From Psychromonas sp. Urea-02u-13 (GTDB lineage Bacteria > Pseudomonadota > Gammaproteobacteria > Enterobacterales > Psychromonadaceae): a stretch of 64,000 bases of DNA. Under the pieces are notes generated by a model, which saw only the letters and a list, made by a program, of their open reading frames with translations, did not search any database and was not told the origin of the DNA. Below, piece after piece: positions 3,987 to 19,844 of this stretch (positions are counted from its first letter, which is position 1; each line of letters starts with the position of its first letter). A program made the position numbers and the translations under genes. Location of the stretch: the NCBI RefSeq assembly GCF_002835995.1, contig NZ_PJBZ01000068.1:1-64000 (forward strand). Reading direction: 5' to 3'.

Positions 3987-6887
3987 ATGTTTACATTTAC
4001 TCCAACAAAAAAAGCAGTTTCAATTGCTTTATTTAGTGTCGGTGTTTTTGCGAGCTCTTCAGCACTAGCTGCTACAGAGTTTGTTCCTGGTAAAACAAAG
4101 GTTGCTAATGGCGACGTTGTTACATACCAAGGTGAGTGTTACGAAGCTCAAAACAATCCAGGTACTTGGGAAACACCAAGTGCATCTGCAACGTGGTTTT
4201 GGACAACTGCCGAATGTGGTGTTGTAACGCCTACTTCAGTGCCAACAGTTGAACCAACTCCTGAGCCTACACCAGTAGTAACGCCAACTTCAGTTGCTAC
4301 TGCTGAACCAACTCCAGTAGCAACACCTACACCAGTGGTTACGCCTCCACCTAGAACAGGTAATGGATGGGATGCGAGCAGTGTTTATAATACTGGCGAT
4401 GAAGTGACCCATAACGGTTCTACTTATGTTGCTGGTTGGTGGACGAAAGGGCAAGAGCCTGGTACTACAGGTGATTGGGGTGTTTGGACACTGACAAGTG
4501 GTGGTGTAGTAACACCGACTCCAGTTGTAACGCCTACACCAGTTGTAACACCTACTCCAGTAGTAACGCCTACGCCAGTAGTAACGCCGACTCCAGTTGT
4601 AACGCCGACTCCAGTTGTAACGCCTACACCAGTAGTAACACCGACTCCAGTTGTAACACCTACTCCACCAGTAACTGGCGGAAACCCGGATGATGTATGT
4701 CGTCCTGATGGTTTATTTGTTGTCCCTGGCGCAAACACACCTTACTGTACTGTTTATGATACAGAAGGTCGTGAAATCATGGGTGCTGATCATCCACGTC
4801 GTATTATCGGTTACTTTACGTCATGGAGAAACGGTGCAAACGGTCAACCTTCATTCCTAGCATCTGATGTTGCTTGGGATAGTGTGACGCATATTAACTA
4901 CGCATTTGCACATATTGATAAGCAAGGCGAAGTTTCTATTGGTGATACAACAGATCCGAAAAACCCTGCGACAGGTATGACTTGGGAAGGTGCTGAAAAT
5001 GCAATGGACCCATCACTACCGTACAAAGGTCACTTTAACTTATTAAACCAATACGCTAAGAAAAATGACGTTAAGTTATTACTTTCTGTTGGTGGTTGGG
5101 CTGAAACAGGAGCTCACTTCGATGACGCTGGTCGTTACATGGATGGTGGTTTCTACAGCTTAACAATTGATGATGCAACGGGTGAAATCAACCATGCTGC
5201 TATCAATAAATTTGCTAAATCAGCCGCTAAATTTGTTAACCAATATGACTTTGATGGTATCGATATAGATTACGAATACCCATCTTCAATGTCTGATGCG
5301 GGTCATCCAAATGATTGGTCTGTCTCTAACATGCACCGTGGGAAACTATGGGGCGGTTACATGGCGCTAATGGAAGCATTACGTACAGAACTTGATATGC
5401 AAGGTGCTGCAGATAAAGAGCATTACATGCTAACTATCGCTTCTCCTTCATCGGGTTATTTATTACGTGGTTTTGAAGGTTTCCAAGCACTTCAATACTT
5501 AGATTACGTAAATATCATGTCTTACGATTTACACGGTGCATGGAATCACTTTGCAGGTCACAATGCTGCATTGTTTGACAACGGTACTGATGCTGAAATC
5601 AAAGATGCGGGTATCTACGAAGGTGGCGATGCGAAATACTACAATGGTCAAGGTTACTTGAATATTGATTGGTCTTTCAAATACTTCCGTACAGCGCTTG
5701 CTGGTGGTCGTATTAACATCGGTCTTCCTTACTACACACGTGGTTTCCAACAAGTTGAAGGCGGTACTAACGGTCTTAACGGTTTAGCTTCATTACCAAA
5801 TCAGAAAGAATGTTATTTAGGTACTGGTGGCAACTTAGGTCCTGATGCTCTAAGCCCTAAAGCGGGTGCTCCATGTGGTTACGGCGCTGAAGGTATTGAT
5901 AACCTATGGTTTGATGGCGATGCAATGGGTAAAGAAATGTTTGCTGGTGCAAACCCTATTTGGCACGTTGAAAACTTACGCGCTGGATTACCAACTCCTT
6001 ACGTAGATGTATACCATCCATCAAATGTTGACCAAGATGTTTCTCCTGATAAAAATAATGCGAGTTACGTGAAGGTTTATACTGATGCAGCTGCTAAAGC
6101 TAACGTTGGTACATATGTTGAGAACTATGATGAAGTTGCACAAGCTTCATGGTTATGGAATGAAGAGAAGAAAGTTTTCCTTTCAACTGAAAACTTAAAA
6201 TCATTCAAAGCTAAAGTTCAATACGCAATCGACCAAGGCGCTGGTGGTATTATGTTCTGGGAAATGGCGGGTGATTACTCGACGCCAGAGCAAAACGGTT
6301 TAGGTTACCATTACTTTGGTAGCACATTAACTGATACTGCTTACGACATGATTAAAACAGCCGCTCCATATGGTGTTAAAGCCGGTGATGAGAACTTCGT
6401 TATCCCAATGGAAACTGTTGATGTTGATGCGGACTTAGTAGGTTACTTACCTAAAGGTGAAGATAACTACCCAATCCAAATCGCACTTAAACTAACGAAC
6501 AACTCTGACGTAGATTTGTCTGGTGCTGCTATCGCGTTTAATGCATCTCCAGCTGTACCAATGAATGCGCAAATCGCAGATACATTGAAACCTTATGCAG
6601 TACCATCAGGTAACGGAATCGTTAACTTAGTTGATATGTACTCTGGTGTTAAATGGTCTGTTGATAATATCGCAGAAACGGGTCTGAGCATGGGTAATGT
6701 TGGCGGTCTATCAAACGACTTCCACCGTTTCTCTGCACAGCTTAAAGCAGAAGGTTGGGGCGCGCCACAATGGTTACCAGGTGAAACAATTTCGATTGCA
6801 CTTCGTCTGTACATGCCAATGCCTGTCCCTACAAACTTCACATTTACGGTTGCTGGTAAAACATACGGTCGTACATCTGAAAAATAA
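3987..6887 (+). CDS. Secreted GH18 chitinase with two CBM5/12-type chitin-binding modules
   Basis: Extracellular endo-acting chitinase. Order: Sec signal peptide (about 1-29, ASSSALA-A); a first CBM5/12-like module (about 30-75, ending ATWFWTTAECG); a Pro/Thr linker; a second CBM5/12 module (about 127-168, NGWDASSVYNTGDEV then GDWGVWTL); a longer VTPTPV linker (about 174-231); the GH18 barrel from RRIIGYFTSW (near 271) to about 790; and a C-terminal beta-rich region of about 150 residues. The chitinase signature is complete: SVGGW at 367-371 and DGIDIDYE at 423-430, with E430 the expected proton donor. SYDLHGAWN is also typical. At 966 aa it is a large multidomain form. It stands alone, with its own leader hairpin and terminator. 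Confidence 0.95.
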   Translation: MFTFTPTKKAVSIALFSVGVFASSSALAATEFVPGKTKVANGDVVTYQGECYEAQNNPGTWETPSASATWFWTTAECGVVTPTSVPTVEPTPEPTPVVTPTSVATAEPTPVATPTPVVTPPPRTGNGWDASSVYNTGDEVTHNGSTYVAGWWTKGQEPGTTGDWGVWTLTSGGVVTPTPVVTPTPVVTPTPVVTPTPVVTPTPVVTPTPVVTPTPVVTPTPVVTPTPPVTGGNPDDVCRPDGLFVVPGANTPYCTVYDTEGREIMGADHPRRIIGYFTSWRNGANGQPSFLASDVAWDSVTHINYAFAHIDKQGEVSIGDTTDPKNPATGMTWEGAENAMDPSLPYKGHFNLLNQYAKKNDVKLLLSVGGWAETGAHFDDAGRYMDGGFYSLTIDDATGEINHAAINKFAKSAAKFVNQYDFDGIDIDYEYPSSMSDAGHPNDWSVSNMHRGKLWGGYMALMEALRTELDMQGAADKEHYMLTIASPSSGYLLRGFEGFQALQYLDYVNIMSYDLHGAWNHFAGHNAALFDNGTDAEIKDAGIYEGGDAKYYNGQGYLNIDWSFKYFRTALAGGRINIGLPYYTRGFQQVEGGTNGLNGLASLPNQKECYLGTGGNLGPDALSPKAGAPCGYGAEGIDNLWFDGDAMGKEMFAGANPIWHVENLRAGLPTPYVDVYHPSNVDQDVSPDKNNASYVKVYTDAAAKANVGTYVENYDEVAQASWLWNEEKKVFLSTENLKSFKAKVQYAIDQGAGGIMFWEMAGDYSTPEQNGLGYHYFGSTLTDTAYDMIKTAAPYGVKAGDENFVIPMETVDVDADLVGYLPKGEDNYPIQIALKLTNNSDVDLSGAAIAFNASPAVPMNAQIADTLKPYAVPSGNGIVNLVDMYSGVKWSVDNIAETGLSMGNVGGLSNDFHRFSAQLKAEGWGAPQWLPGETISIALRLYMPMPVPTNFTFTVAGKTYGRTSEK
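4507..4675 (+). repeat. 18-nt coding repeats for the VTPTPV linker
   Basis: About nine 18-nt units of the form GTNGTAACNCCNACNCCA encode the second Thr-Pro linker of the chitinase. Units differ mostly at third positions. A shorter irregular version lies at 4220-4350. Such runs change length by slippage and set the spacing between binding module and catalytic domain. Confidence 0.85.
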
Positions 6888-10300: not shown

Positions 10301-12105
10301 TACACATCTTTATTGACCCTTCACCAGTGGATAATGAAGTTAACTTTAAAGAGCGATTACGTTTATTTGAAACGCCAAGAACAGGCTGGAATGATTACGA
10401 TAAAAAGCTTATTTCTAAAGGTGGCGGTATCTTTGAACGTAGTGCTAAATCAATTAGTGTTAGCCCTGAAATGGCGAAGCGTTTTGATATTTACCAAAAA
10501 GAGATAACACCAACTGCGCTTATTACACTGTTACTTAAATCGCAGGTCGATTTGTTATGGAATGGGGGTATTGGGACTTACGTTAAAGGTGAAACAGAAA
10601 CCCATGCAGACGTAGGTGATAAAGCCAACGATGTCTTACGTATTGATGGTGCAGAGTTACGTTGTGCTGTGGTAGGTGAAGGCGGGAACTTAGGCTTTAC
10701 ACAACTCGCGCGTATTGAATATTCTCTTAACGGCGGGCATTGCTTTACCGATGCGATTGATAATGCGGCCGGTGTTAACTGTTCAGATTTAGAAGTTAAC
10801 ATTAAAATATTATTAGATAAATTAGTCTCAAAAGGTGATTTAACGGTTAAGCAGCGTAATGTTTGGCTGGTTAATATGACCGATGAAGTGGCGCAAATTG
10901 TATTGGCTAATAATTATCGCCAAGCGCAATCCATTAGTCTTTCTTTCGGTGATAGCTACAAACGTATTGAAGAGTTCCGACGTTTGATTATTGACTTAGA
11001 AGACAAAGGCAAACTGAATCGTTCATTAGAATTTATTCCGAGCGATGATGTCTTAAATGAGTATAAGAGCACAGAGTGCGGTTTAACCCGTCCAAGTATT
11101 TCTGTAATGCTTTCGTATGCTAAAAACGAGCTTAAGGAAGCATTAGCGCATGAAAAAATAGCCGATGATCCGTACTTACTAAAAGAAGCAGAAAAAATAT
11201 TCCCTGCTTCTTTGGTTAAACAATACCAACAAGAAGTGCATCAACATCCACTGGTCACTGAAATCGTAGCCACACAAGTGAGTAACGATCTGTTTAACTG
11301 CATGGGGCCTACTTTTACTTACCGTATTATGGCGAGTGCCGGTTGTTCATTCTTAGATGTCAGTAAAGCTTGGGTCGCTGCCCGTGATATTTTCTCAATG
11401 AGTGAAACATTACAAGCGATTGAAGACCTAGATAATATTATTAGCACTGAAGTACAAAGCGTTCTCATTGAACGTTTAAAACGTATGGTGCGTCATGCTA
11501 CACGTTGGTTAGTACGTAATCATCGTGCGGATTTAGACACCGGTAAATTAGTTAAATGTTACCAAGCGCCTTTGCAAAAACTAGTGGCACAATTTGATGA
11601 GTTATTAATTGGCAGTTCAGTAACCCACAGGAAAGAGGTGATTGATTGTCTCGTGGAAGATAATGTGCCAACTGCTTTAGCTGCCTCACTAGCAAGTAGT
11701 GATCAAATTTATGCAATGTTAGGGGTTATCTCAATTGCTAAAAAAGCAGCGGTGAAACCAGAACAGGCATTACGTGTTTATTTCCACAGTGGCGAGTCGT
11801 TAAAACTGTTTGATATCAGCAAGCAGCTTAACTTGTTACCGGGTGATAGTCACTGGCAGTCATTAGCACGCGAAGCAATGCGCGATGATCTTGAATGGCA
11901 ACAGTTGCGCATTAGTAAAGGTATTTTAGAAAAAGTGAAAGAGGGAGTTGATATTGGTGATGCATTTGTAGAATGGCATACCTCGCATCATATTCTTTCT
12001 GAGCGCTGGCAACGTATGGCCGAAGCGATTATGGCGGTTAATAAACCAGAGTTTAGTATGTGTCAGGTTGCTTTACGCGAACTGATGGATCTTTCGCAGA
12101 GTTAA
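7318..12105 (+). CDS. gdhB: NAD-specific glutamate dehydrogenase, large (~180 kDa) type
   Basis: Oxidatively deaminates L-glutamate to 2-oxoglutarate and ammonia with NAD+, chiefly for amino-acid catabolism. 1595 aa fits the L-180 class: a long N-terminal part with ACT-like segments (about 1-700), a catalytic core (about 700-1200) and a C-terminal helical region. The core shows GGLRWSDRGEDFRTEVLGL and VPVGAKGGF with the catalytic-type lysine K833, then IGIGDMAGDVFGNGML of the dinucleotide-binding part. ATG 7318 is preferred over GTG 7309 because AGGTGA lies five bases before it. Monocistronic, closed by a strong terminator. Confidence 0.96.
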   Translation: MTSTLNQKNDILEQIFTQLKKHFSDKDQKTLQLFINSVYRDVSITDLAQIPQDDLNGLTVSLWREVLVRKGDSAKVKVFNPDVEQDEWQSAHTVISVVCRNIPFVIDTLKLVLNELNIKLHRVFYSEISSERSKSGKLSSLTAKSAEELVLYFEVDHTSSNAEREQIKSSIESALLDVSLVVDDFSVLSKLVKSALKQNKSDKFSPQIKDIEEQQTFLTWLLDDHFTFIGCDQFIVKEDGVHLVANSQLGLLKRDDFLQDPLPFELFDTLQKQSLIHFSKASQRAMVHRPAYPDVIYIKRFNDQGELISGYRFIGLYTSSVYSGTPKDIPIVRHKISNVLAKSSYSKGSHYFKELSQILYTFPVEDLLLCNEAILLNNVVEVLHAQERKELKLFMRCAGNKQFVIATLYVPRDIYSTEVRRTFEGLICRTLEVEDIDFQTYLSESNLARLRVVLRLKSPLNQVLEEKAIQERMKQLTRHWDDELHDALIEQFGEETGIKLTKKYADAFPSSYQDGFSSRVAVADIERIESLYNDEKRSMTLRFYRSIEPNSSELKLKLFHQDGSLLLSDLIPILENMGLKVAEEYPYKVTPIGEESFWLYDFTLLYSQVKHFDPEAYRARFADAFLSVWYAKTDNDPFNKLILGAGLNWRDISMLRAYAKYLKQLRFGFSLSAIAKTLLDHHKLVKEIVTLFSLRFDPKKAGDLAKQEKLQDKIINALNDVKNLNEDRVLRKYVELIMATIRCNYYQTNNGESHDYLSFKFDHSLLTEIPLPRLNYEIFVYSPRVEGVHLRGGKVARGGLRWSDRGEDFRTEVLGLVKAQQVKNAVIVPVGAKGGFVAKQLTAEMDREAFMTEGISCYKIFISALLSITDNLDNGKVIPPLDVVRYDSDDPYLVVAADKGTATFSDIANELATDRNFWLNDAFASGGSNGYDHKKMGITARGAWISVQRHFRELGTDVQTKPITVIGIGDMAGDVFGNGMLSSKCISLLAAFNHLHIFIDPSPVDNEVNFKERLRLFETPRTGWNDYDKKLISKGGGIFERSAKSISVSPEMAKRFDIYQKEITPTALITLLLKSQVDLLWNGGIGTYVKGETETHADVGDKANDVLRIDGAELRCAVVGEGGNLGFTQLARIEYSLNGGHCFTDAIDNAAGVNCSDLEVNIKILLDKLVSKGDLTVKQRNVWLVNMTDEVAQIVLANNYRQAQSISLSFGDSYKRIEEFRRLIIDLEDKGKLNRSLEFIPSDDVLNEYKSTECGLTRPSISVMLSYAKNELKEALAHEKIADDPYLLKEAEKIFPASLVKQYQQEVHQHPLVTEIVATQVSNDLFNCMGPTFTYRIMASAGCSFLDVSKAWVAARDIFSMSETLQAIEDLDNIISTEVQSVLIERLKRMVRHATRWLVRNHRADLDTGKLVKCYQAPLQKLVAQFDELLIGSSVTHRKEVIDCLVEDNVPTALAASLASSDQIYAMLGVISIAKKAAVKPEQALRVYFHSGESLKLFDISKQLNLLPGDSHWQSLAREAMRDDLEWQQLRISKGILEKVKEGVDIGDAFVEWHTSHHILSERWQRMAEAIMAVNKPEFSMCQVALRELMDLSQS

Positions 12106-12155
12106 TTGTCTATTGAGCGCGCACTATTAAGCGAATTAAATACACTTAACCGTTA

Positions 12156-12197
12156 ACGCCACTTGCAGTTTAAACACTGCAAGTGGCGTCTTTTTTG
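12156..12197 (+). terminator. Strong intrinsic terminator after gdhB
   Basis: ACGCCACTTGCAGT (12156-12169) pairs perfectly with ACTGCAAGTGGCGT (12176-12189) around a 6-base loop, followed by CTTTTTT. Confidence 0.92.
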
Positions 12198-12278
12198 GGC
12201 CGTCTTTGTTGGCTTAATAAGCATTTTATGTTTTTTAGATTATTAACCATTTCAACAAACGTTTAACAAAAAAGTTAA

Positions 12279-12293
12279 ATTGGTATTACCATT
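12279..12293. promoter_or_regulatory. PdhR operator, distal
   Basis: ATTGGTATTACCATT matches the known PdhR box (ATTGGTnnnACCAAT) apart from the right edge. It lies about 160 bp upstream of pdhR. The 12106-12451 gap otherwise holds the gdhB terminator and the pdhR promoter. Confidence 0.8.
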
Positions 12294-12386
12294 TTTAACT
12301 TTTTGTCATTTACTGTTCAAATTCATACCAAATGACACTTTGTTACCTGCGTCAGATCAAACTTTGCTAGACAGATGTTAAAAAAA

Positions 12387-12426
12387 TTGTTAATTTCTCT
12401 GTATATCGTAAATTGGTAATACCACT
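12387..12426 (+). promoter_or_regulatory. pdhR promoter overlapped by a second PdhR operator
   Basis: ATTGGTAATACCACT at 12412-12426 is a second PdhR box, 25 bases before the start codon. A possible promoter, TTGTTA (12387-12392), 16-base spacer, TAAATT (12409-12414), runs into the box, so bound PdhR would block RNA polymerase. This arrangement means autorepression relieved by pyruvate; the promoter assignment is inferred. Confidence 0.65.
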
Positions 12427-12451
12427 TTACAACTTGATAATAAAGGGCACC

Positions 12452-13201
12452 ATGGCTTACGCAAAAATCAAGCAACCTAAATTAGCTGATGTAATAGAAG
12501 ATCGCATTGAAAGTATGATTTTAGATGGCTCGCTTGAGTTAGGCGAAAAGCTACCTGCAGAACGTGAACTTGCTAAGCAATTTGATGTTTCTCGTCCCTC
12601 TTTACGCGAAGCCATTCAGCGCTTAGAGTCAAAAGGGCTATTAACACGTCGTCAAGGTGGAGGCACTTACGTTAAAGAAGCATTACGTGAGAAATTAACC
12701 GATCCTCTTTTTGAATTATTAAATACCCACCCTGAATCGCAATATGATTTGCTTGAATTCCGCCATGCTTTGGAAGGTTTTTCTGCTTATTATGCAGCGC
12801 TTCGTGGAACAGCTGAAGATTTCGATAAAATAAAACATTGTTTTGCTGCCATTGAAGATGCGCAAAAAAATGATGACTTAGAGCTTGAGATTCAAAGTGT
12901 TGCTTTGTTTTATTTAGCGGTTATTGAAGCATCTCGTAATGTGGTTTTCTTGCATTTAGCACGTGGTATCAAACCTTTATTAGAAAAAAACATTTCAGAC
13001 AATGTTAAGCAACTTTATGATTATCCTGAAGTCGCTAAAAAAATTCATCAACATCGTCTACAGTTGCTGGAAGCCATTCTTTCTAAGCAACCTTTAGTTG
13101 CACAAAAAGCATCAGCACAACACCTTATCTACATTGAAGAATCACGTTCAGTCATGTTACGTGAAGAAAGCTCTTTTAAACGCGAATTAGGGCGTTTTTA
13201 A
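12452..13201 (+). CDS. pdhR: Pyruvate dehydrogenase complex repressor PdhR
   Basis: GntR-family (FadR subfamily) repressor that senses pyruvate and controls the pyruvate dehydrogenase genes. The N-terminal winged helix is near-identical to characterised PdhR (EKLPAERELAKQFDVSRPS, then LREAIQRLESKGLL and RRQGGGTYV); the C-terminal all-helical FCD domain begins at PESQYDLLEFRHALEGFSAY. The start is ATG 12452, giving MAYAKIKQPKL like the E. coli protein (MAYSKIRQPKL), with AAAGGG upstream; an in-frame earlier start at 12413 would fall inside the operator. 249 aa is the usual length. It precedes aceEF-lpd, separated by an unusual repeat array. Confidence 0.97.
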   Translation: MAYAKIKQPKLADVIEDRIESMILDGSLELGEKLPAERELAKQFDVSRPSLREAIQRLESKGLLTRRQGGGTYVKEALREKLTDPLFELLNTHPESQYDLLEFRHALEGFSAYYAALRGTAEDFDKIKHCFAAIEDAQKNDDLELEIQSVALFYLAVIEASRNVVFLHLARGIKPLLEKNISDNVKQLYDYPEVAKKIHQHRLQLLEAILSKQPLVAQKASAQHLIYIEESRSVMLREESSFKRELGRF

Positions 13202-13228
13202 ATCTACATTATTTAAAAATAGCAGAAT

Positions 13229-13880
13229 CACTATGGATAGTGAGCTAATAGCTATTTAGATTACTTATTACCACTTGGTATTAACCATTTGTTAGTAGTT
13301 GGTGAATCTAAATCGTTATAGTGGAAAAACACGTTTAGTGATATTACGTGGATAAATTTAAAGAATCACATTGGATAGTCAGCTAATAGCTATTTAGACT
13401 ACTTATTGCCACTTGGTATTAACCATTTGTTAGTAGTTGGTGAATCTAAATAGTTATATAGCAGCAACACGTTTAGTGATGTACGTGGATAAATTTAAAG
13501 AATCACATGGATAGTGAGCTAATAGCTATTTAGATTACTTATTGCCACTTGGTATTAATCATTTTTAGTAGTTGGTGAATCTAAATCGTTACATAGTAAA
13601 ACACGTTACATGGTAAAAACACGTTTAGTGATATTACGTGGATAAATTTAAAGAATCACATTGGATAGTCAGCTAATAGCTATTTAGATTACTTATTGCC
13701 ACTTGGTATTAACCATTTGTTAGTAGTAGGTGAATCTAAATCGTTACAGTGTAAAAACACGTTCAGTGATGTACGTGGATAAATTTAAAAGAATCAACAT
13801 GGGTAATTATTTAGATTACTTATTGCCACTTGGCATTAACCACAGGTAGTGGGTGAATCTAAATAGTTACAAATTAAACG
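13229..13880 (+). repeat. Five tandem ~135-bp hairpin repeats between pdhR and aceE
   Basis: Units begin near 13229, 13367, 13503, 13657 and 13795, with shared-anchor spacings of 138, 136, 154 and about 126 bp; the last is shortened. Each carries ATTTAGATT (or a one-base variant) and its reverse complement AATCTAAAT, enclosing TTGGTATTAACCA, a PdhR-box-like core with a four-base instead of three-base spacer (13275-13287, 13413-13425, 13549-13561, 13703-13715, 13830-13842). The first four units also have a CACG...CGTG hairpin and the A-rich tail GTGGATAAATTTAAAGAATC. No ORF. It fills the whole 724-bp gap. Confidence 0.93.
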
Positions 13881-13925
13881 CTTAGCCTACGGCTAAGATA
13901 CTTAAGTACAAAGAAGGAAAGTGTC

Positions 13926-16589
13926 ATGACTGACATCTTAAACAGTGATATTGATGCACAAGAAACTTCAGAATGGCTTGCAGCACTAGCCGATATTCTT
14001 GAAGATGAAGGCTCTGAACGCGCACAATTTATTCTTGAAAAAGTAATGGAAAAAGCGCGTGTAGAGGGTGTTAACTTACCACACGGTATTAACACTAATT
14101 ATGTAAATACAATCCCTGTTAGCAAGCAACCAGCTTACCCTGGTGATCTTAAACTTGAACAACGCATCCGTTCAATCATTCGCTGGAACGCGATCATGAT
14201 TGTTATGCGTGCTTCTAAGAAAGACTTAGACTTAGGTGGCCACATGGCTTCTTACCAGTCTGCCGCTGCTTTCTACGAAGTTTGTTTTAACCATTTCTTC
14301 CGTGCTGCAAATGCAACGGATGGTGGTGATTTAGTTTATTACCAAGGTCATATCTCTCCTGGTATTTACGCGCGTGCATTTGTTGAAGGTCGTTTATCGG
14401 CAGCTCAACTTGATAACTTCCGTCAAGAAGTCGATGGCGAAGGTCTTCCTTCATACCCGCATCCAAAACTATTACCTGAATTCTGGCAGTTCCCAACAGT
14501 TTCTATGGGTCTTGGTCCAATTACATCTATCTATCAAGCACGTTTCTTAAAATACTTGAACGGTCGTGGTCTTAAAGACACAACTGCACAACGTGTTTAT
14601 GCTTTCCTAGGTGATGGTGAGATGGATGAGCCGGAATCTCGTGGTTCATTATCATTCGCTTCACGTGAAAAATTAGATAACTTATGTTTCTTAGTTAACT
14701 GCAACCTACAGCGCCTTGACGGTCCTGTTATGGGTAACGGTAGCATCATTCAAGAACTAGAAGGCCTATTTACAGGTGCTGGTTGGAATGTTGTTAAAGT
14801 TATCTGGGGCGGTAACTGGGATGCACTACTTGCTAAAGATACTTCAGGTAAATTATTACAATTAATGGATGAAACCGTTGATGGTGATTACCAAACATTT
14901 AAATCTAAAGATGGCGCATACGTGCGTGAAAACTTCTTTGGTAAATACCCTGAAACAGCTGCACTAGTTGCAGACATGACTGATGATGAGATTTTTGCTC
15001 TGAAACGTGGTGGTCATGATTCATCTAAACTGTTTGCTGCTTTCAAAAATGCAGAAGAAACGATGGGTAAACCAACGGTTATTCTTGCTAAAACAGTTAA
15101 AGGTTACGGCATGGGCGCTGCCGCTGAGGGTAAAAATATTGCTCACGGCGTGAAGAAGATGAACGAGTCTCATATTCAGAGTCTACGTGATCGCCTAGGT
15201 CTACAAGATATCGTAAGTAATGAAAAAGCTGCTGAACTACCGTACTTAACGTTAGAAGAAGGCACTGAAGAGCATACATATTTACATGCTCGTCGTGATG
15301 CGTTATTAGGTTACACTCCTAAGCGTTCACCTCAGTTTAGTGGTAAATTAGAAGTACCTACACTTGAGAAATTTGCGCCTCTTTTACAAGAGCAAAAACG
15401 TGATATCTCAACAACGATGGCTTACGTACGTATCTTAAACGTGTTATTAAAAGATAAAGGTATCGGTAAAAACATCGTTCCAATTATCTGTGATGAAGCA
15501 CGTACATTCGGTATGGAAGGTCTATTCCGCCAAGTGGGTATTTATAACCCAGATGGTCAAGAATACACACCAGAAGATCGCGGTGTTGTTTCTTACTATA
15601 AAGAAGCGGTATCGGGTCAAGTACTTCAAGAAGGTATCAACGAACTAGGTTCTATGTCTTCATGGGTTGCTGCTGCAACGTCATACAGTACTAATGACTT
15701 ACCAATGATTCCATTCTACATCTACTACTCAATGTTTGGTTTCCAACGCATTGGTGATATGGCATGGTTAGCGGGCGATCAACAAGCACGTGGTTTCCTA
15801 TTAGGTGCTACTGCTGGTCGTACTACGCTAAATGGTGAAGGTCTACAGCATGAAGATGGCCACAGTCATATTCAAGCAAATACGATTCCTAACTGTATCT
15901 CTTACGACCCAACATTTGCTTATGAGCTTGCTGTTATCGTACAACACGGTATTGAGCGTATGTATGGCGATAACCCAGAAAACGTTTTCTACTACTTAAC
16001 AGTAATGAACGAAAACTACGCTATGCCAGCAATGCCTGAAGGCGCTGAAGAAGGTATCCGTAAAGGTATCTACAAACTTAAATCATATGCTGGTAGCACT
16101 AAAGTTCAATTATTGAGCTCTGGTACTATTATGAACGAAGTGACTAAAGCGGCGCAAATTCTAAGCGAAGAATACAACGTTGCATCTGATGTATTCTCTG
16201 TTACTTCATTCAATGAATTAACACGTGAAGGTCAGCATGTAGAACGTGAAAACATGTTAAACCCTGAAGCTGAAGACAAAGTTGCTTACATCACACAAGT
16301 ATTAGGTGATGCACCAACAATCGCAGCAACGGATTACATGAAAAACTATGCAGAGCAAGTACGTGCATTTATCCCATCTGATACTTACAAAGTATTAGGT
16401 ACTGATGGATTCGGTCGTTCAGATAGCCGTGCAAACCTACGTCGTCACTTTGAAGTGAACGCGGGTTATGTTGTTGTTGCTGCTCTGAGTGAACTTGCAA
16501 AACGTGGTGATATTAAAGCATCTGTAGTAACAGAAGCGATTGCTAAGTTTGATATTGATACAAACAAAGTTAATCCTCTGTTTGCATAA
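13926..16589 (+). CDS. aceE: Pyruvate dehydrogenase E1 component (homodimeric)
   Basis: Thiamine-diphosphate-dependent E1 subunit: decarboxylates pyruvate and acetylates the lipoyl groups of E2. 887 aa, the same length as the E. coli enzyme and typical of the homodimeric class. Visible are the ThDP-binding stretch FLGDGEMDEPESRGSLSFA followed by FLVNCNLQRLDGPVMGNG, and the transketolase-like pyrimidine domain (ICDEARTFGMEGLFRQVGIY, then TTLNGEGLQHEDGHS). AAGGAAAG precedes the ATG. aceF follows 58 bp on. Upstream is the five-unit repeat array, so its transcription may depend on reading through or starting within that array. Confidence 0.98.
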   Translation: MTDILNSDIDAQETSEWLAALADILEDEGSERAQFILEKVMEKARVEGVNLPHGINTNYVNTIPVSKQPAYPGDLKLEQRIRSIIRWNAIMIVMRASKKDLDLGGHMASYQSAAAFYEVCFNHFFRAANATDGGDLVYYQGHISPGIYARAFVEGRLSAAQLDNFRQEVDGEGLPSYPHPKLLPEFWQFPTVSMGLGPITSIYQARFLKYLNGRGLKDTTAQRVYAFLGDGEMDEPESRGSLSFASREKLDNLCFLVNCNLQRLDGPVMGNGSIIQELEGLFTGAGWNVVKVIWGGNWDALLAKDTSGKLLQLMDETVDGDYQTFKSKDGAYVRENFFGKYPETAALVADMTDDEIFALKRGGHDSSKLFAAFKNAEETMGKPTVILAKTVKGYGMGAAAEGKNIAHGVKKMNESHIQSLRDRLGLQDIVSNEKAAELPYLTLEEGTEEHTYLHARRDALLGYTPKRSPQFSGKLEVPTLEKFAPLLQEQKRDISTTMAYVRILNVLLKDKGIGKNIVPIICDEARTFGMEGLFRQVGIYNPDGQEYTPEDRGVVSYYKEAVSGQVLQEGINELGSMSSWVAAATSYSTNDLPMIPFYIYYSMFGFQRIGDMAWLAGDQQARGFLLGATAGRTTLNGEGLQHEDGHSHIQANTIPNCISYDPTFAYELAVIVQHGIERMYGDNPENVFYYLTVMNENYAMPAMPEGAEEGIRKGIYKLKSYAGSTKVQLLSSGTIMNEVTKAAQILSEEYNVASDVFSVTSFNELTREGQHVERENMLNPEAEDKVAYITQVLGDAPTIAATDYMKNYAEQVRAFIPSDTYKVLGTDGFGRSDSRANLRRHFEVNAGYVVVAALSELAKRGDIKASVVTEAIAKFDIDTNKVNPLFA

Positions 16590-16647: not shown

Positions 16648-18210
16648 ATGTCTGAATTAAAAGAATTTTTACTGCCTGATATTGGTGCTGATGCTGCTGA
16701 TGTTACTGAAATTTTAGTGTCTGTTGGCGATGTTATCGTTGAAGATCAAGATGTGATGTCAATTGAAGGTGATAAAGCTTCAATGGACGTACCTGCTGCA
16801 TTTGGCGGCACGGTTAAAGAAATCAAAATGAACGTGGGTGACAGCGTTTCTGAAGGCCAAGTGGTTTTAATCATTGAAGTTGCTGGCGCTGCCACTGCAG
16901 AAGCACCTGTTGCTGCTGTTGTTACAGAAGCTGTGGCTGAAGTTGCTGCTCCTGCTGCTGCAACACAACTAAAAGAAGTTTGTGTTCCTGATATCGGTGG
17001 TGATGAAGTTGAAGTAACAGAAGTGTTAGTTTCTGTTGGTGATGTGATTGCAGAAGACCAAGATATCCTTTCTGTTGAAGGTGATAAAGCTTCAATGGAC
17101 GTACCTGCACCGTTTGCTGGTACTGTAAAAGAAATTAAAATCGCTGCTGGCGATAAAGTATCTGAAGGCACATTAATTCTAGTAGTTGAAGCATTAGGTA
17201 GCGCACCGGCTGCTGCACCTGCACAAGCCGCTGCTCCAGTTGCCGCTCCTGCACCTAAAGCTGCGCCTGCTGCCGCGAAAGCTGCTGAACCTGTGACTAC
17301 TGGTTCAATCAAAGCGTCTCCTTCAGTGCGTCGTTTAGCACGTGAATTTGACCTTGATTTAGCACGCATTCCAGCAACTGGCCGTAAAGGTCGCATTAGC
17401 AAAGATGACGTACAAAAATTTGTTAAAGCACAATTAGCAATCGCAAAAAGCGGTGGCGGTGGTGGTTTACAAGTATTGCCTTACGCTGAAATTGATTACT
17501 CTAAATTTGGTGAAATTGAGATTAAACCTCTTTCACGTATTCAGAAAATCTCTGGTCCAACATTGCACCGTAACTGGGTAACTATCCCACACGTAACGCA
17601 GTTTGATGAAGCAGATATCACTGATTTAGAAACGTTCCGTAAAGAGCAAAATGCAATTGCTGCTAAACAAGATTTAGGTCTTAAAATTAGCCCGCTTGTA
17701 TTTATGATGAAAGCCGTTGCTAAAGCATTAAAAGAATACCCTAACTTCAATGCTGCACTATCAACTGATGGCGAAAATGTAATTCTTAAGAAATACATCA
17801 ACATCGGTATCGCAGTAGATACACCAAACGGTCTAGTTGTTCCTGTTGTTAAAGATGTAATTAACAAAGGCATTTACGATATTTCTCGTGAACTGGGTGA
17901 AATCTCTCAAAAAGCACGTAAAGGCAAACTAACTGCGAAAGATATGCAGGGTGGAAGCATGAGTATTTCAAGTCTTGGCGGTATCGGTGGTACACAATTT
18001 ACACCTATCGTTAATGCACCTGAAGTAGCTATTTTAGGTGTTTCAAAATCTGCGATGAAGCCTGTTTGGGATGGCGCTAAATTTGAGCCTCGCTTAATGG
18101 TTCCGCTTGCTCTTTCTTACGATCATCGTGTTATTGATGGTGCTGATGGCGCACGCTTTATTACTGCAATTAACAACTACTTATCTGATCTACGCACGTT
18201 GATCCTATAA
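16648..18210 (+). CDS. aceF: Dihydrolipoamide acetyltransferase (PDH E2)
   Basis: Core E2 subunit, transferring acetyl from lipoyl-lysine to CoA. Two lipoyl domains are present, with lipoylated lysines in [11 protein letters not shown] at K43 and K147, an Ala/Pro linker (about 185-215), a peripheral-subunit-binding domain ([18 protein letters not shown], near 224) and the acyltransferase domain with catalytic DHRVIDG (H493, D497). At 520 aa it has two lipoyl domains, against three in E. coli. GGAAG precedes the ATG. A long antisense open frame at 16746-17402 is a composition shadow of the Ala-rich part. Confidence 0.98.
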
Positions 18211-18335: not shown

Positions 18336-18410
18336 CATTTATTTAACATTTAAATAGAATCAACGCATATTTAAATGTTGGCATTATTGATATCAAACAC
18401 AGAGGTCAAA

Positions 18411-19844
18411 ATGAGTAAAGAAATCAAAGCACAAGTTGTCGTAATAGGCTCTGGCCCTGCTGGTTATTCAGCAGCATTTCGCGCAGCAGATTTAGGTTTA
18501 GAAACTGTATTAATCGAAAAATATGAAACACTAGGTGGTGTTTGTCTGAATGTTGGTTGTATTCCTTCTAAAGCTTTACTTCATGTATCAAAAGTAATTG
18601 AAGAAGCAAAAGCATTATCAGAGCATGGTGTTTTATTTGGCGAACCTTCAACAGATATCGATAAAATCCGTATCTGGAAAGACAAAGTTGTTTCACAGCT
18701 AACTGGCGGCCTTCAAGGCATGGCTAAAATGCGTAAAGTGACAACTGTAAATGGTTGGGGACGCTTTACTGGCGCTAATACTATTGAAGCGACAGATCGT
18801 GAAGGCGAAGTGACTACAATCACTTTTGATAACGCAATCATTGCTGCCGGCTCTCGCCCAGTTAAATTACCGTTTATTCCGCATGATGATCCACGTGTTT
18901 GGGATTCTACAGATGCGCTTGAACTTAAATCTGTACCAAAACGTTTACTTATTTTAGGCGGTGGTATCATCGGTCTTGAAATGGGAACAGTTTACAAATC
19001 ATTAGGTTCTGATGTTGATGTTGTAGAATTTGCTGACCAATTAGTGCCTGCTGCCGATAAAGATATTGTGCAAGTTTACACTAAGAAAGTTAAAGACAAG
19101 TTCAACATCATGTTATCAACTAAAGTAACGGGCGTTGATGCTAAAGAAGACGCGTTATACGTTTCTTTTGAAGGTAAAAATGCACCCGCTGAAGCGAAAG
19201 CTTATGATGCTGTATTAGTGGCTGTTGGTCGTGTTCCAAACGGTTTCTCAGTAGATGCTGAAAAAGCGGGTATTACGGTAACAGAACGTGGTTTCATTGA
19301 AGTTGATAAGCAAATGATGACTAACGTGCCACACATTCACGCAATCGGCGATATCGTTGGTCAACCTATGCTTGCGCATAAAGGTGTGCATGAAGGCCAT
19401 GTTGCTGCTGAAGTTATCGCGGGTAAGAAACATTACTTTGATCCTAAAACAATTCCTTCAATTGCTTACACTGAGCCAGAAATGGCATGGGTTGGTTTAA
19501 CTGAACGTGAAGCGAAAGAGCAAGGTATTAACTTCGAAAAATCAGTATTCCCTTGGGCGGCTTCTGGTCGTGCAATCGCATCTGATTGCTCTGACGGTAT
19601 GACTAAGCTTATCTTTGATAAAGATACTCACCGTATTATTGGTGGTTCAGTTGTTGGTACTAACGCAGGTGAATTATTAGGTGAAATCGGTCTTGCAATC
19701 GAAATGGGTTGTGATGCAGAAGATATCGCATTAACTATTCATGCTCACCCAACATTACATGAATCTGTTGGTCTTGCTGCTGAAATTTACGAAGGTTCTA
19801 TTACAGATCTTCCAAATGCAAAAGCAGTTAAACGTAAAAAATAA
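18411..19844 (+). CDS. lpd: Dihydrolipoamide dehydrogenase (E3)
   Basis: FAD/NAD flavoprotein reoxidising dihydrolipoamide in the pyruvate and 2-oxoglutarate dehydrogenase complexes and the glycine cleavage system. FAD site VVVIGSGPAGYSAA, redox disulfide GGVCLNVGC (C45, C50), NAD site LILGGGIIGLEMGTV and C-terminal catalytic HAHPTLHE. The start is ATG 18411 (MSKEIKAQVV), preceded by AGAGG, giving 477 aa; an upstream in-frame ATG at 18375 lacks a ribosome site. Its separate upstream region suggests expression beyond the PDH operon. Confidence 0.98.
   Translation: MSKEIKAQVVVIGSGPAGYSAAFRAADLGLETVLIEKYETLGGVCLNVGCIPSKALLHVSKVIEEAKALSEHGVLFGEPSTDIDKIRIWKDKVVSQLTGGLQGMAKMRKVTTVNGWGRFTGANTIEATDREGEVTTITFDNAIIAAGSRPVKLPFIPHDDPRVWDSTDALELKSVPKRLLILGGGIIGLEMGTVYKSLGSDVDVVEFADQLVPAADKDIVQVYTKKVKDKFNIMLSTKVTGVDAKEDALYVSFEGKNAPAEAKAYDAVLVAVGRVPNGFSVDAEKAGITVTERGFIEVDKQMMTNVPHIHAIGDIVGQPMLAHKGVHEGHVAAEVIAGKKHYFDPKTIPSIAYTEPEMAWVGLTEREAKEQGINFEKSVFPWAASGRAIASDCSDGMTKLIFDKDTHRIIGGSVVGTNAGELLGEIGLAIEMGCDAEDIALTIHAHPTLHESVGLAAEIYEGSITDLPNAKAVKRKK

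Follow-up and report, generated by a model that had tools for sequence, protein, structure and literature searches.

The pdhR-aceE locus

The window analysed here is the whole stretch of 64,000 nucleotides, and the feature of interest lies in it between the genes pdhR and aceE. The open reading frame of pdhR occupies 12452..13201 on the plus strand, with ATG 12452 as the chosen start, and its product shows 81-88% identity to 13 named Psychromonas records, which identifies the window as Psychromonas DNA. The open reading frame of aceE, specifying pyruvate dehydrogenase E1, follows at 13926..16589 (+), with aceF (16648-18210) 3' of it and lpd (18375-19844) after aceF, the latter two having been named by reading their translations. 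An RNase III-domain protein (PF14622) is encoded in the same genome.

Upstream of pdhR lies a canonical PdhR box with a 3-base spacer, ATTGGTAATACCACT (12412..12426, +), overlapping a promoter-like TTGGTA-17-GATAAT (12413-12441) which is a consensus match only, no more than shuffled sequence gives. A second box-like sequence, ATTGGTATTACCATT, is found approximately 130 nt further upstream of the 12412 box. In the promoter scan no sigma-70-like consensus match was found inside the pdhR-aceE gap, but since the scan returned only four matches against a shuffle mean of 7.4, i.e. fewer than the shuffles, this absence says little.

The gap (13202-13925, 724 nt) contains five tandem units with start-to-start distances of 138, 136, 154 and 127; Tandem Repeats Finder reported a period of 138, 2.8 copies and a score of 639 for 13224-13607. 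Minimum-energy folding, with z-scores taken from 200 dinucleotide shuffles per unit, gave plus-strand hairpins of 28 pairs, bulges included, for unit 1 (13247..13319, P1-type; z -3.9), unit 2 (13385..13457; z -3.9) and unit 4 (13675..13747; z -5.0), and one of 25 pairs, again with bulges, for unit 3 (13521..13592; z -2.7). The hairpin of unit 5, P1 (13802..13870, +), is the orthologous copy found throughout the genus and likewise has 28 pairs including bulges (z -6.6). A 17-bp sub-repeat at 13587-13625 makes unit 3 longer, and a small spacer hairpin (ACGTTTAGTGAT..ACGTG) is present in units 1-4 as well as in two relatives (loci L007 and L141). Elsewhere in the window, positions 4224-4675 carry tandem 18/54-bp repeats (consensus GTAACGCCTACTCCAGTT), which probably encode a Val-Thr-Pro-rich stretch.

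The earlier note had described five units filling the whole gap. Five units are indeed present, but the final 55 nt hold a second hairpin, P2 (CTTAGCC-TAC-GGCTAAG; 13881..13897, +), which covaries across the genus, and the ribosome site of aceE, read in the sequence as a Shine-Dalgarno-like AAGGA (13914..13918, +). The complementary arms that it had placed around a constant core occur in all units; the core is less constant, TTGGTATTAACCA being exact in units 1, 2 and 4 only and replaced by TTGGTATTAATCA in unit 3 and TTGGCATTAACCA in unit 5.

Similarity searches of the source genome (320 contigs) returned five unit matches at E <= 0.001, every one within the array, and three extra short matches of 16-22 nt at E <= 1. 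An RNA model of the element recovered the same five units; its remaining hits, at E-values of 0.47 and above, were a partial match and two echoes of the array on the reverse strand. A dispersed repeat of the REP or MITE type is rejected, given the confinement of all matches at E <= 0.001 to the array. Of the suggestion that a repeat family had expanded locally, there remains the multiplication of copies at this site; no copies are scattered elsewhere in the genome at that threshold.

The tip TGGTATTAACCA of units 1, 2 and 4 looks like an operator, and it had been proposed that the units form an array of DNA sites binding or titrating PdhR. The PdhR core, as it is given in the part of PMC7660256 available to us, is GGTnnnACC. 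Units 1, 2 and 4 share with this operator an inverted TGGT/ACCA, but their look-alike has a spacer of 4 rather than 3 bases, is unconserved and forms the tip of a hairpin. GGTnnnACC occurs in none of the 23 Psychromonas pdhR-aceE gaps, and the 4-spaced look-alike in one of them, that of this genome (units 1, 2 and 4). The canonical core instead precedes pdhR in 19 of 20 loci; in the 20th, L046, the contig ends inside pdhR. Operator function of the array is accordingly extremely improbable, and titration of PdhR is not supported, given the wrong spacing and the absence of the sites from the gaps of relatives.

Distribution of the element in Psychromonas

Comparison of the gap across related genomes revealed a conserved element, in which the long hairpin P1 is followed by the short hairpin P2 and then by the aceE ribosome site. 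With strict filters and E <= 0.01, the RNA model detected it in 23 of 24 Psychromonas genomes (the source genome included) and in none of the 370 others of the order, though the model was trained on Psychromonas and could therefore miss distant forms. At this threshold it listed just one of the three units of genome G011. All 23 best matches fall between pdhR and aceE; in the exception, G019, no pdhR was detected within 1500 nt upstream of aceE.

Relatives with a single copy have gaps of 113-198 nt containing one unit, then P2, AAGGA and aceE; in L141 the gap is 230 nt and holds one unit plus a remnant. P1 ends 51-63 nt before aceE throughout Psychromonas, and AAGGA is retained in 22 of 22 leaders. 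In the window it is the aceE-proximal unit 5 that aligns with the single unit of relatives and is hence the orthologous copy; this fifth unit, taken at first to be a shortened one, does keep both arms.

The longest helix in the predicted folds is at least 21 bp in 20 of the 23 Psychromonas leaders (the last 150 nt only being folded for L001, L007 and L141) and just 15-16 bp in L020, L037 and L143. A helix of at least 18 bp was found in 20 of 23 Psychromonas gaps versus three of 64 non-identical gaps from other genera, a comparison set drawn mostly from Pseudoalteromonas and Shewanella, with gaps that are often shorter, and excluding the E. coli family as well as loci where pdhR does not adjoin aceE (8 of 18 in one set).

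A separate observation concerns aceE itself. In L008, L009, L010 and L046 the first approximately 200 residues of AceE are 68-69% identical to those of the window, the corresponding values being 83-96% for the genes behind the other Psychromonas gaps and 66% for G019. These four loci keep the leader, and their pdhR shows 82-88% identity, so that aceE appears diverged or replaced behind the same leader.

Covariation analysis

Covariation was analysed in 22 distinct leaders, L022, whose element is identical to that of L021, being omitted. A test of all column pairs against a tree-shuffled null gave no individually significant pair, as 22 similar sequences provide little power, and a structure-level test was therefore used. 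Its alignment contained hand-shifted gaps and its structure was derived from 18 of the 22 sequences, so that the test leans towards structure. In the null, substitutions were re-placed at random on the pdhR tree in 1000 replicates. For P1, 94.6% of cells were paired (null mean 86.2, maximum 92.9) and nine pairs had changed on both sides (null mean 2.6, maximum 7), neither value being reached in any replicate. For P2, 98.7% of cells were paired against a null mean of 76.5, again reached by none of the 1000, and its four doubly changed pairs were equalled in 45 of them. The earlier note had suggested a covariation check; across the leaders the pairing of both hairpins lies beyond all 1000 null replicates at the level of the structure, with single pairs not significant, and neither of two outcomes named there as refuting, a lack of covariation or conservation and units scattered through the genome, was observed. 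An earlier set of 18 leaders had also yielded nine pairs changed on both sides, matched by none of 500 shuffles.

Individual changes can be followed in the arms. The sisters L020 and L037 have T in the 5' arm at a position that is G in the others; in L037 the partner has changed too. Compensatory arms are seen in L141 (TTTCAAT/ATTGAAA) and in L142 and L143 (TTTCGA/TCGAAA), the others having TTTAGAT/ATCTAAA. By parsimony the 5' arm has undergone 27 changes and the 3' arm 35, hence neither arm alone is fixed. Two adjacent U-G pairs persist in 20 and 18 of the 22 leaders, respectively; retained G-U pairs of this kind are more in keeping with an RNA than with a palindrome in DNA. The unit represents an RNA element, selected as RNA. 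The proposal of a multi-hairpin leader of aceE is upheld to this extent, by covariation and by presence throughout the genus.

Part of the P1 arms is conserved in sequence besides pairing. Conservation beyond pairing is what a ligand- or protein-sensing leader would display, a riboswitch-like device controlling aceE translation in which P1 would be the sensor, present here in extra copies, and the switch would be either P2 or a pairing of ACGCUU with AAGUGU beside the ribosome site. The six bases located before and at the foot of P2 can form a full pairing with AAGUGU by the Shine-Dalgarno sequence in 18 of 22 leaders; L009 has one mismatch, and L015, L142 and L143 have two apiece. Candidate riboswitches upstream of aceE are mentioned for other bacteria in the parts of PMC11109978 and PMC2864571 at hand. 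Against a sensor, the apex of P1 varies in both length and sequence with no conserved apical core, and in L141 it is a plain hairpin. We consider such a leader unlikely. When positions 12000-14200 of the window were searched against Rfam, no family reached its gathering score, the lowest E-value being that of L13-Bacteroidia (22.9 versus 38 bits).

Copy number

Copies were counted by reading the gap sequences and with a pattern for the 5' arm, which missed L046; a pattern for the 3' arm failed in most rows. There are five units in the window, three in L007, one plus a spacer remnant in L141 and one in L006, the gap of which is the same as that of P. marina (L034). On the pdhR tree these four loci form one group (0.845), within which L007 and L006 are sisters (0.986); either gain or loss of copies must therefore have occurred more than once, or L006 lost copies. 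Most Psychromonas relatives have one copy.

Such differences among close relatives (five, three, one plus remnant, one) are as expected if the tandem expansion is neutral, unit 5 being functional and units 1-4 duplicates with no effect. The folds point the same way, units 1-4 being less stable than unit 5 and, in L007, both extra units less stable than the third. On the other side, both arms are retained in units 1-4 and in the two extra units of L007, which may however be too young for decay. We regard neutral expansion as a serious possibility, somewhat short of an even chance; it bears on nothing but the extra copies and does not conflict with the processing function proposed for P1 below. 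It is very doubtful that hairpin number is a selected dosage device retuning pyruvate dehydrogenase output, or that the array is a multi-sensor leader of a new class. The occurrence of one, three and five hairpins in close relatives nevertheless forms a natural series in which to ask whether multiplying a processing site alters expression.

A putative RNase III processing hairpin

A duplex of the length of P1 is a plausible RNase III substrate. The double-stranded stretch of approximately 22 bp that an RNase III hairpin needs is predicted, at 21 bp or longer, in the 20 leaders noted above.

The E. coli counterpart of the gap has been studied. In the part of PMC5371410 available to us, an RNA-seq study, the pdhR-aceE gap of E. 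coli heads the list of newly proposed RNase III sites; RNase III cleaved the site near aceEF in vitro, 5' RACE gave its position, the half-life of the aceEF mRNA was about 3 min versus about 5 min in an rnc mutant, and 22 nt is given as the minimum target size. In E. coli K-12 we located a 22-bp hairpin in the pdhR-aceE gap, ending 39 nt before aceE. The published coordinate 122961 falls inside it if the numbering is that of NC_000913.3, and it is probably the hairpin described in that study (PMC5371410).

In the family of genome G040 this hairpin is kept in 29 of 30 loci (the miss is L179), with similar arms and a variable apex. The 30 loci are taken from 40 matching among 119 genomes of the family and were chosen for their similarity to the E. 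coli stretch containing the hairpin, so that the figure expresses conservation among similar gaps and not family-wide; 79 of the 119 genomes, many of them very small, gave no match. Seven loci of the family (L185-L191) have similar arms with a hairpin loop of 30 to more than 100 nt. The 342-nt gap of G029 (L156) contains one very long hairpin of MITE-like appearance, its 31-bp helix forming part of a larger inverted repeat. A strict pattern of the E. coli type matched nine of 394 genomes of the order, in four genera, Psychromonas not being among them.

P1 is similar in length to the E. coli hairpin. The 5' arms of the two have the 7-mer CUUAUUG in common, a match of a kind given by 177 of 5000 shuffles (approximately 3.5%). 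The Psychromonas RNA model, run against 10 loci including L144, L163, L183 and L192, left the E. coli hairpin unmatched, so that common descent of the two can only be conjectured.

We judge it slightly more probable than otherwise that P1 serves the pdhR-aceEF-lpd transcript as a processing hairpin of the RNase III type, multiplied in this species. For Psychromonas we infer read-through and cleavage, what P2 does and whatever effect copy number may have, as follows. A read-through transcript from pdhR would carry each unit as an RNA hairpin before aceE; the absence of a promoter match in the gap agrees weakly with this. An RNase III-type cut in P1 would split the transcript into a pdhR message and an aceEF-lpd message and would set the decay rate of the latter, and the small P2 would remain beside the ribosome site after processing. 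The extra copies would have been added upstream by tandem duplication.

Covarying hairpins directly upstream of a ribosome site could also serve mainly to stabilise the RNA or to block nucleases, as an intercistronic or 5' stabiliser that RNase III does not cut. The duplex length suits RNase III, however, and in E. coli the site in this gap is reported as cut (PMC5371410), which makes a pure stabiliser quite unlikely. On the processing reading of P1, two lineages or more would seem to control their pyruvate dehydrogenase mRNA at a long hairpin located between pdhR and aceE.

Comparison with known systems

Among the literature matches listed, the titles and abstract openings contained no description of the element in Psychromonas. 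Two candidate RNAs bear comparison. The aceE-II motif of Thioalkalivibrio is described as a candidate riboswitch upstream of aceE in the available part of PMC11109978; judged by that description, it resembles the present element in being a structured RNA 5' of aceE and differs in belonging to another lineage. The 'aceE' motif, a candidate RNA of gamma-proteobacteria, appears in PMC2864571 as a table row with no Rfam accession, and the likeness here lies in both being candidate RNAs connected with aceE in gamma-proteobacteria.

The closest comparison is with the E. coli RNase III site. The two differ in arm sequence and in number, the E. coli hairpin being present in a single copy; the latter moreover contains a promoter, according to the accessible text of PMC5371410. 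They agree in lying in the same gap of the same operon, as a long hairpin before aceE (PMC5371410), in carrying CUUAUUG in the 5' arm and in being kept among relatives. By this analogy, the proposal that P1 works like the E. coli RNase III hairpin is well motivated.
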